A stretch of 64,000 nucleotides of DNA from Kitasatospora mediocidica KCTC 9733 (lineage in GTDB: Bacteria; Actinomycetota; Actinomycetes; Streptomycetales; Streptomycetaceae): positions 1,426,001 to 1,490,000 of the forward strand of contig NZ_JQLN01000005.1 in the NCBI RefSeq assembly GCF_000744225.1, given 5' to 3'. Within the stretch, counting starts at the first letter, position 1. Each line of letters begins with the position of its first letter. Positions 3,025-27,895 of this stretch are shown here, piece by piece. The notes beneath the pieces were generated by a model. That model searched no databases. It was not told where the DNA came from and saw only the letters and a list, made by a program, of their open reading frames with translations. A program made the translations under genes and the position numbers.

Positions 3025-3066
3025 CCCCGGGTGGCGCTGTTTCACGTGAAACAGCGCCACCCGGGG
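3025..3066. other. parS site 2, within a 42-bp perfect palindrome
   Basis: The core TGTTTCACGTGAAACA is at 3038-3053, and perfect dyad symmetry extends to 3025-3066. It lies in the gap between trxB and trxA. The outer arms are GC-rich (CCCCGGGTGGCGC), so the RNA could also form a strong hairpin, but the ParB core is exact. Confidence 0.95.
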
Positions 3067-4189: not shown

Positions 4190-5140
4190 TTACGGCGCTG
4201 CCACGGTCTGGTGCAGTTCGACGGTGGCGGGTGCGGCGGGGGTGTGCAGAGCGCAGCCCGCGTCGAGCAGGTAGACGTCCAGCCGGCCCGGATCGGCGGG
4301 GAGCGGGAAGACGTAGACGTCGACCGGGGTGCTGCCGTAGCGGCCATGGCCGACCGCGAGCGGGACCTTGCCGGCGTCGCCGCCGACGGCCGCCCGAACG
4401 CATCCGGGGAGCTGGTCGGTGGGGGCGGTGGCGTCGGCGTTCTGGTTGGTGGCGTGCGGCACGATCTTGGCTGTGGAGCCCGAGGGCTGGGAGGCCAGCA
4501 GCTGCTGTACCTGGGACGGCAGGCCGTCCGCGCTGAAGACCGGTCCGCCGGCCAGGGCGGGGGAGTCCGCGGGCCGCAGGGTGGCGCTGTTCGCACTGCT
4601 CGCGATGTTGTCGTTGGAGGAGCCGGAGTGGACCAGGACGGCCCCCAGTCCGAGCACGGCGAGGCATCCGGCGGCGGCCAGCAGCATCCGGGCCCGGCGG
4701 CGGAAGGCCGTCCGTCCGGGCCGCGAGCTGCGGTCGCTGCGGCCGGGCGGCGCGGCGATCGGAGAGCGGGGGAGACCCGGACCCGAAGCCGAACCCGAAG
4801 CCGAACCCGAAACCGGAGCCGAAGCCGGCTCGCCGATGGGGTGTGCGGCGGCCTCGGCGGCCAACGCGGCGTCGATCCGCAGCGCGACGTCCGCGGGCAT
4901 CGCCGGCGGGTCGTCGGAGCCGAGCAGTTCGGCCAGCTCGGCCAGCGCGACGAGAGTGTCGGCGCACTGCGCGCAGCCGTCCAGATGCGTGCGGACGGCG
5001 GCGGCCTCCTCGGCGCCGAGCAGTTCCTCCTGCAGATCCGCCAGCTGGTCGGTGGACGGGTGGTCGTCGGACGGCTGGTCCGTGGAAGGGGCGGAGGCCG
5101 TCGGATCGTCCTCGACGGGGTCGGGTGCCTGGTTGGTCAT
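4190..5140 (-). CDS. rsmA: Anti-sigma factor, RsmA-like
   Basis: Membrane-anchored anti-sigma factor, presumably for the adjacent SigM; 316 residues. The N-terminal cytoplasmic part contains an HxxxCxxC zinc-anti-sigma motif (HLDGCAQC). A Ser/Gly/Ala-rich linker follows, then one membrane segment (ARMLLAAAGCLAVLGLGAVL), and an extracytoplasmic domain with two further Cys residues. S. coelicolor RsmA is reported to bind a [2Fe-2S] cluster; whether this protein does cannot be seen from sequence. Its ATG overlaps the sigM stop by 4 nt. The linker is encoded by a degenerate 12-bp tandem repeat (about 4780-4830). Confidence 0.87.
   Translation of the reverse strand: MTNQAPDPVEDDPTASAPSTDQPSDDHPSTDQLADLQEELLGAEEAAAVRTHLDGCAQCADTLVALAELAELLGSDDPPAMPADVALRIDAALAAEAAAHPIGEPASAPVSGSASGSASGPGLPRSPIAAPPGRSDRSSRPGRTAFRRRARMLLAAAGCLAVLGLGAVLVHSGSSNDNIASSANSATLRPADSPALAGGPVFSADGLPSQVQQLLASQPSGSTAKIVPHATNQNADATAPTDQLPGCVRAAVGGDAGKVPLAVGHGRYGSTPVDVYVFPLPADPGRLDVYLLDAGCALHTPAAPATVELHQTVAAP
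4780..4830 (-). repeat. 12-bp tandem repeat encoding a Ser-Gly-Ala linker
   Basis: Degenerate copies of GAACCCGAAGCC run through the rsmA gene and encode the linker SGSASGSASG just before the membrane segment. Copy number may vary between strains without breaking the frame. Confidence 0.7.
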
Positions 5141-5862
5141 CGGGGCGTCGCGTCTCCTTCCAGGCTCAGCTTGCGCACGGGGATGGCGGGATCCCTCGAT
5201 GGGACGGAGCCGGAGCCCGCTGGGTTCCCCGGTGGCGGGGGACGGGTCGATGTTTCACGTGAAACATCGCTCCCGCGCAGATGGCGGACGAGCGGCAGCA
5301 GCCGGGCCCGGCCGCGCGCGCAGCGGCTTTTCACGGTGCCGACGGGCACGCCGAGCACCTCGGCCGCCTCGGCGACCGGATAGCCCTGCATGTCCACCAG
5401 GACTATCGCGGCCCGCTGGTCGACGGGGAGCGTGTCGAGCGCGGTCGCCAGCTCGCGGCGCAGCTCCTGGCGGACCACCAGGGCGTCGGTGGGCTCGGTG
5501 CTGCCGACCAGGGTGTCGAGCTGCTGCGGGTCCTCGTCCAGCGAGCCGGTGCGACGGCTGGCGGTCCGCCGGGCGCGGTCGAGGCAGGCGTTGACCACGA
5601 TCCGGTGCAGCCAGGTGGTGACGGCGGAGCGGCCCTGGAAGGTGTGTGCGGCGCGGAAGGCGGAGACCAGTGCGTCCTGGAGCGCGTCGGCGGCCTCCTC
5701 ACGGTCGCTGAGGGTGCGCACGGCCACGGCCCAGAGGCGGTCCCGATGGCGCTGGACCAGCACGCCGAAGGCAGCCTTGTCACCGTCGACATGACGTGCC
5801 AGGAGCTCCGCGTCGGTCGGCTCGGCGGCCTCGGACAGCTGCTGTCGCGTCGGCTCCGCCAT
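5137..5862 (-). CDS. sigM: ECF sigma factor SigM
   Basis: Extracytoplasmic-function sigma factor of about 241 residues. Region 2 is visible around RHRDRLWAVAVRTLSDREE and region 4 around VAEAAEVLGVPVGTVKSR. Start: I chose ATG 5862 because AGAGGGG lies 7 nt upstream; an upstream in-frame start at 5907 has no ribosome-binding site. The stop overlaps the rsmA start (ATGA), so sigma and anti-sigma factors are coupled. The C-terminal tail of about 45 residues after region 4 is Pro/Ser-rich. A perfect parS inside that tail is translated as DVSRETS. Gene order matches sigM/rsmA in Mycobacterium and Streptomyces. Confidence 0.93.
   Translation of the reverse strand: MAEPTRQQLSEAAEPTDAELLARHVDGDKAAFGVLVQRHRDRLWAVAVRTLSDREEAADALQDALVSAFRAAHTFQGRSAVTTWLHRIVVNACLDRARRTASRRTGSLDEDPQQLDTLVGSTEPTDALVVRQELRRELATALDTLPVDQRAAIVLVDMQGYPVAEAAEVLGVPVGTVKSRCARGRARLLPLVRHLRGSDVSRETSTRPPPPGNPAGSGSVPSRDPAIPVRKLSLEGDATPR
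5248..5269. other. parS site 3, inside the sigM coding sequence
   Basis: The core TGTTTCACGTGAAACA is at 5251-5266, with perfect symmetry to 5248-5269. It lies in the 3' part of sigM, where it is read as D-V-S-R-E-T-S in the tail beyond sigma region 4. Confidence 0.95.
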
Positions 5863-5910
5863 CTGCTGTCCCCTCTCTGCCGCTCGGGTGCGCACGGCGA
5901 GCCGCACAGC

Positions 5911-17054: not shown

Positions 17055-17096
17055 TGACTGTGGCCGATGTTTCACGTGAAACATCGGCCACAGTCA
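17055..17096. other. parS site 4, within a 42-bp perfect palindrome
   Basis: The core TGTTTCACGTGAAACA is at 17068-17083, with perfect symmetry to 17055-17096. It lies between ino1 and the MFS transporter gene, overlapping where the transporter promoter would be. Confidence 0.95.
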
Positions 17097-26857: not shown

Positions 26858-27148
26858 ATGCGTCACTACGAGGTGATGGTCATCCTCGACCCCTCGGTCG
26901 AGGAGCGCGCTGTCTCCCCCCTGATCGAGAACTTCCTCAACGTTGTCCGCGAAGGCGGCGGCAACGTGGAGAAGGTCGACACCTGGGGTCGTCGTCGCCT
27001 GTCGTACGAGATCAACAAGCAGTCCGAGGGCATCTACACGGTCATCGACCTGAAGGCCACGCCCGCGGTTGTCAAGGAGCTCGACCGCCAGTTCTCGCTG
27101 AGCGAGTCGGTTCTGCGGACCAAGGTCCTGCGCCCGGACACCCACTGA
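26858..27148 (+). CDS. rpsF: 30S ribosomal protein S6
   Basis: 96 residues, the normal length. It starts [16 protein letters not shown] and contains the family-typical [19 protein letters not shown]. It binds 16S rRNA with S18. First gene of rpsF-ssb-rpsR-rplI. ATG 26858 has AAGGAGGTGG 7 nt upstream. The 132-bp gap to ssb contains the interrupted parS. Confidence 0.98.
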
Positions 27149-27189
27149 GCCACCGCTGAGACCCTTCGGGGTCCGCGGTAGTCCAGGTC

Positions 27190-27243
27190 CGATGTTTCAC
27201 GTGGCGGAAGCCATTACTAGCACCGCTGAAGCGTGAAACATCG
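27190..27243. other. Interrupted parS between rpsF and ssb
   Basis: The arms CGATGTTTCACG (27190-27201) and CGTGAAACATCG (27232-27243) are the two halves of a parS, held apart by 30 bp. The left half runs on past the centre as CACGTG, so CGTG is present on both sides (27200-27203 and 27232-27235), with 28 bp between. The intervening sequence contains TGGC-GGAA-GCCA and GCGG/CCGC pairs, so the RNA would fold as a nested hairpin before ssb. It is either a parS broken by a small insertion or a regulatory stem-loop that resembles one. Confidence 0.75.
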
Positions 27244-27280: not shown

Positions 27281-27895
27281 ATGGCAGGCGAGACCGTCAT
27301 CACACTCGTCGGCAATCTCGTCGACGACCCCGAGCTGCGTTTCACCCCGTCGGGTGCGGCGGTCGCGAAGTTCCGCATCGCGTCCACTCCCCGCACCTTC
27401 GACCGTCAGACGAACGAGTGGAAGGACGGCGAAAGCCTCTTCCTCACGTGCAACGTCTGGCGTCAGCCGGCGGAGAACGTGGCCGAGTCGCTGCAGCGCG
27501 GCATGCGCGTGATCGTGCAGGGCCGACTGCGCCAGCGGTCTTACGAGACCAAGGAAGGCGAGAAGCGGACGGTCTTCGAGGTCGAGGTCGATGAGGTCGG
27601 CCCGAGCCTTCGCTCGGCGACCGCCAAGGTGACCCGGGCCAACCGGTCCGGTGGCCAGGGCGGACCTGGTGGTGGCGGCGGCTTCGGCGGCGGCCAGCAG
27701 CAGGGCGGCGGGTTCGGCGGCGGTGGCCAGCAGGGCGGCGGCGGCTGGGGTGGCAACACCTCCGGCGGCGGCCAGTCCGGTCCCAGCGACGACCCGTGGG
27801 CGTCCAGCGCTCCGGCACCCGGTGGAAACCAGGGTGGCGGCGGTGGCTGGGGTGCCCCGTCCGGTGGCGGCTTCTCGGAAGAGCCTCCGTTCTAA
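27281..27895 (+). CDS. ssb: Single-stranded DNA-binding protein
   Basis: 204 residues. The OB fold occupies about residues 1-110 ([20 protein letters not shown] to [11 protein letters not shown]). A very Gly/Gln-rich linker follows, and the acidic partner-binding tip is SEEPPF. It coats ssDNA in replication and repair. ATG 27281 has GAGAGG about 10 nt upstream. It sits between rpsF and rpsR as in other actinobacteria. The split parS/hairpin 38 bp upstream may affect its expression relative to rpsF. Confidence 0.98.

Follow-up and report, generated by a model that had tools for sequence, protein, structure and literature searches.

The gap between rpsF and ssb in Kitasatospora mediocidica KCTC 9733 holds the two halves of a parS site, CGATGTTTCACG at positions 27190-27201 and CGTGAAACATCG at 27232-27243 of the window, which here means the whole 64,000-nucleotide stretch that was analyzed (NZ_JQLN01000005.1, 1,426,001 to 1,490,000) [Table 1]. 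The two arms are 12 nt long, 100% complementary and 30 nt apart; the window has at this place no contiguous palindrome of 14-16 bp corresponding to GTTTCACGTGAAAC or a close variant of it. A CACGTG motif occupies 27198-27203, and the intervening sequence shows internal pairing of the form TGGC-GGAA-GCCA at 27202-27213. The letters and coordinates that the original prediction gave for 27190-27243 proved exact on re-checking. The surroundings are those canonical for chromosomal parS sites close to oriC and parAB: the window includes a ParB-family gene (689-1786) as well as four exact parS of 16 bp, and a pattern search, which was the method used for all genome-wide scans, recovered nine exact copies of GTTTCACGTGAAAC from the whole genome.

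Table 1. Features of the rpsF-ssb region, in window coordinates
Feature	Coordinates	Strand	Basis
rpsF (30S ribosomal protein S6), upstream neighbor	26858..27148	+	TIGR00166 equivalog above cut-off; ATG and TGA checked
41-nt stretch past the rpsF stop, predicted first hairpin, species-variable	27149..27189	+	Folds in all three split genomes
Left part of ancestral parS, CGATGTTTCACGTG: half-site and rest of the center	27190..27203	.	Same letters as the left part of the sister group's intact site
CGTG duplication, copy 1	27200..27203	.	Sequence; single copy in intact relatives
28-bp insert proper, GCGGAAGCCATTACTAGCACCGCTGAAG	27204..27231	.	Missing in 67/70 genus genomes; single copy; versions in G055 and G052
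CGTG duplication, copy 2	27232..27235	.	Sequence
Right parS half, CGTGAAACATCG	27232..27243	.	Complementary to 27190-27201; same in the three split genomes
Predicted RNA hairpin, 13 + 5 pairs with a 3-nt bulge	27190..27243	+	-27.7 kcal/mol
ssb, downstream neighbor	27281..27895	+	NF005851 above cut-off; PRK07772

A parS-type sequence is present in the rpsF-ssb gap of every one of the 70 Kitasatospora genomes searched. In 67 of them it is an uninterrupted perfect palindrome of 14-16 bp, and in the remaining three, namely the window, G055 (L082) and G052 (L083), it is split. The nearest intact relatives read GTCCGATGTTTCACGTGAAACATCGCTGAACGG, which is the window sequence minus the 28-bp insert and minus one CGTG. 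The insert is 28 bp in length (30 bp in G052) and is placed between CACGTG and the duplicated CGTG. In a tree of 46 loci the three split genomes form one clade with a support of 100/100, which is nested among intact genomes, so that a single insertion event suffices to explain their distribution. As all 67 genomes outside this clade are intact and the same split form is found in two further independently assembled species, the split sequence is not a chance resemblance to a broken parS, and the separate assembly of the three genomes excludes an assembly artefact for practical purposes. An alignment of the gap across relatives, which the original prediction had called for, thus bears out its central claim that a small insertion entered an intact parS and duplicated the 4 bp CGTG: the site is intact at the same place elsewhere in the genus and split in one clade. 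In its half-sites, its oriC-parAB neighborhood and the intact parS that relatives have at the corresponding position, the locus resembles the chromosomal parS of the Streptomycetaceae ParABS systems, from which it differs in that its palindrome is broken by 28 bp and a 4-bp duplication. In named records, a parS is also present in the rpsF-ssb gap of Peterkaempfera, and none is found there in Streptomyces and Streptacidiphilus species proper. A family-wide search for parS halves 2-32 bp apart gave no sign of recurrent splitting among the matches listed, which were nearly all tandem intact parS besides the three split sites.

The insert is present as a single copy in its own genome (allowing up to 3 mismatches), as established by the genome search that had been proposed along with the original prediction. 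Among the 70 genus genomes it is found solely in the split clade, and no relatives of it were recovered elsewhere among 395 family genomes. The original prediction had entertained a miniature insertion, and the insert does have one hallmark of a MITE, a duplication of target-site type, with CGTG flanking it on both sides and only one copy of this motif in intact relatives; its internal pairing would also be in keeping with a miniature mobile element or a footprint left by it. However, terminal inverted repeats are absent from all three versions of the insert (the ends read GCGGAAGCC... and ...CCGCTGAAG), and the multiple copies or relatives typical of such elements are missing from its own genome and from the genus and family sets alike. 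A mobile element is accordingly not supported, and we regard this origin as very improbable. Most of the insert can be aligned with the 3' end of rpsF (CGGACACCCACTGAGCCACCGCTGA), which lies some 68 bp upstream. This match reaches P 0.006 against shuffles and 0.03 against random 28-mers for the G055 form, and P of about 0.04 against shuffles and about 0.2 against random stretches of the window for the G000 and G052 forms; a templated origin from rpsF is suggestive for the G055 form only and weak for the other two, and hence is not claimed here. Rather than a transposon, the repair of a break or a stalled fork at the palindrome, with filler DNA or a template switch, would be the most likely source of the insertion.

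Judged by its sequence, the intact rpsF-ssb site of the relatives behaves like a genuine ParB site. The K. phosalacinea group and G026 have the variant GTTCCACGTGGAAC at several sites of their genomes, and their rpsF-ssb site has undergone this double change as well; the two lineages that show the switch are separate on the tree (L005/L009 vs L020/L110). The ancestral form of the site thus matches the parS variant that its genome carries, with the exception of G032, which has GTTCCACGTGGAAC elsewhere but keeps GTTTCACGTGAAAC at the rpsF-ssb site. These observations bear on the reading that the original prediction would have preferred had relatives never carried an intact parS, namely that the spaced arms are only a conserved RNA hairpin and never were a parS. 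Such a reading would lead one to expect the stable fold that the three split genomes share, but it is refuted by the 67 genomes with an intact 14-16 bp parS, which tracks the GTTCC switch in two lineages, and we give it practically no credence. As a separate observation on the genus, many of the parS are of the GTTCCACGTGGAAC type (4-9 copies, vs 1-4 of GTTTCACGTGAAAC) in G008, G009, G011, G012, G014, G022, G023, G024, G027, G036, G041 and G042, and separately in G026 and G032, an apparent genome-wide switch to GTTCCACGTGGAAC with at least two origins.

The intact site is, in addition, probably a covarying RNA-type stem, as indicated by the bases flanking its 14-bp core. In an alignment of 26 rows, each a distinct site aligning without a shift, 92.3% of the flanking cells are paired vs 84.7% in shuffles (0/500 reach this value), and the covariation score is 0.214 vs 0.058 in shuffles (0/500), with every slid control scoring lower; the alignment omits five sites whose flank is shifted or has changed on one side only, and this favors the stem somewhat. 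One flanking position displays six types of pairs, including G-U. Palindromic symmetry also continues outward more often at the rpsF-ssb site than at the pooled remaining parS of these genomes, both at position 8 from the center (97% vs 47%) and at position 9 (77% vs 32%). In nearly all of the 54 distinct gaps that were folded, a hairpin past the rpsF stop is followed in tandem by a second at the parS. Compensatory changes across species of this kind are those expected of an RNA stem, but symmetric recognition by ParB beyond the core could also give symmetric changes in the flanks, which makes the stem probable and not proven.

Perfect palindromes centered on parS are also present elsewhere in the window, at 1806-1843 (38 bp), after the stop region of the parB-family gene, at 3025-3066 (42 bp), between trxA and trxB, and at 17055-17096 (42 bp), between ino1 and an MFS gene. 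The orthologous parS palindromes of relatives show the paired changes TGTGG/CCACA, TACGG/CCGTA and GAGGG/CCCTC, as if at these three places the parS formed the tip of terminator-like hairpins; these long palindromes may deserve more interest than the split site. A further exact parS lies in the 22-bp perfect palindrome CGATGTTTCACGTGAAACATCG at 5247-5268, within what is predicted to be the coding sequence of sigM (minus strand, 5137-5907); the 22 bases of this palindrome are those of the ancestral rpsF-ssb site. The half-parS TGTTTCACGTG is found within a few bases of an intact parS at G002:C1:3921831, G039:C1:4407367, G057:C8:43174 and G068:C1:2943626, where it is possibly the remnant of a decayed tandem parS.

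Returning to the split site, the same long hairpin with an 18-bp stem is predicted in all three genomes, and its folding energy of about -28 kcal/mol, with z from -4.05 to -4.71, compares with -11 kcal/mol at the intact site of the sister; for the window z is -4.05 and 0/200 shuffles are as stable. The stem is longer after the split because the ends of the insert pair with each other. The stem-loop that had been guessed at in the original prediction is partly borne out, as a stable predicted hairpin, whereas the opposition that it drew between a hairpin and an insertion is not, since the intact parS appears to be the tip of a covarying stem and the insertion lengthened that stem. The site resembles intercistronic or terminator-like hairpins in its stable predicted stem, which is in tandem with a first hairpin, and in the covariation seen in relatives. 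It differs from them in that the stem of the relatives doubles as a DNA centromere site, in that the rpsF-ssb gap contains no U-tract of an intrinsic terminator (the sequence following the stem is CTGAACGG), and in that an Rfam search of the region returned no family match and nothing relevant. Cruciform extrusion as a means of restoring the parS was also considered and rejected, as on reading the sequence extrusion would pair arm with arm and not rejoin the site.

Within the split clade, as represented by its three genomes, the arms show no variation at all. None of the 24 arm columns varies among these genomes, compared with 9 of 41 columns in the upstream stretch and 5 of 30 in the insert (14 of 71 together), and the downstream leader is likewise invariant. 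With three such close genomes, the invariance of the arms has a P of 0.012 against the upstream gap and the insert, and of 0.045 against the insert alone. All five changed columns of the insert are unpaired in the predicted fold (P 0.031 for the insert by itself and 0.0014 when the arms are included). Equal rates are assumed in these tests, and the columns are classed by a fold derived from the same three sequences; the tests are weak because the split genomes are only three and closely related. It is conceivable that the arms are a young relic, with no selection acting on the split site, which has been too recent to decay; the clade is indeed shallow, with end branches of about 0.01, and the P value obtained with the insert alone as the yardstick is only 0.045. 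We nevertheless consider this somewhat unlikely, given that the very same genomes have accumulated changes upstream of the arms and between them, and that these changes avoid the predicted pairs.

The main alternative cause for the conservation of the arms would lie in ParB itself, if the split site still served it as two half-parS by means of GTTTCAC contacts. The ParB of P. aeruginosa binds GTTCCAC and GTTTCAC half-parS in vivo (PMC10419367), and the window site has kept the heptamer GTTTCAC in both of its arms, in inverted orientation, with the arms unchanged across the three species. However, half-site binding is absent in the B. subtilis data and weak in Caulobacter (PMC10419367), and the ChIP-seq paper on S. 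venezuelae reports 17 full parS with half-parS unmentioned (PMC12511625). Moreover, the spacing of the halves varies by 2 bp among the species, which speaks against a fixed geometry, and the paired ends of the insert are also conserved, though half-sites would not need them. Unlike the half-parS of P. aeruginosa, the halves in the window stem from one broken full site and are candidates as half-sites by their letters. Continued service to ParB thus appears unlikely as the reason for which the arms were conserved. By analogy with P. aeruginosa, where ParB represses the genes next to the intergenic parS3 and parS4 (PMC5521831), the insertion may alternatively have been selected for relieving ParB repression of an ssb promoter that would lie in the gap, a proposal that accords with the distance of 37 nt between the split site and the downstream start codon of ssb. 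Yet no promoter is known or predicted in the gap (promoters of the Streptomyces type being poorly covered), a search of the available literature for an ssb promoter there found no paper, and the split form is seen in three species only, which together make such a release from repression improbable.

The account that we favor, and consider fairly probable, is that an ancestral parS was split once by a non-mobile 28-bp insertion and that its arms were kept as an RNA hairpin between rpsF and ssb. A functional parS in the Kitasatospora rpsF-ssb gap would have been split in the common ancestor of the three species, by an insertion accompanied by the 4-bp CGTG duplication at the center of the palindrome. 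The half-sites would thereby have been displaced by 32 bp (34 in G052), so that a ParB dimer is probably unable to load on them canonically, and the split site is likely to be a disabled ParB site. Its loss would have been tolerated because the split genomes retain 8-9 other exact parS. The arms probably persist as the stem of a hairpin in the rpsF-ssb transcript, with a function at the RNA level and perhaps some effect on ssb; the best reading of the comparative data is that they are kept as an intercistronic hairpin, possibly also as two half-parS. This raises the possibility, which we hold tentatively and at a little less than an even chance, that some Kitasatospora parS are bifunctional, being centromere sites within a selected RNA hairpin, and that the split uncouples these two roles, with the stem kept and strengthened and the centromere function lost.

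The object described here is a disrupted parS, and as such a variant of a known thing, with the twist that its arms appear to have been kept for a second role; it is a tidy natural experiment and no new kind of system. A genus-wide parS has been broken by one insertion in three species, with intact sisters at hand for comparison, and with it one can ask directly whether any single parS is of consequence, whether ParB is still recruited by halves set about three helical turns apart, and whether parS sequences double as RNA hairpins at the ends of genes. The comparison across the genus suggests that a parS can be under two selections at once, for ParB binding on its core and for base pairing on its flanks.
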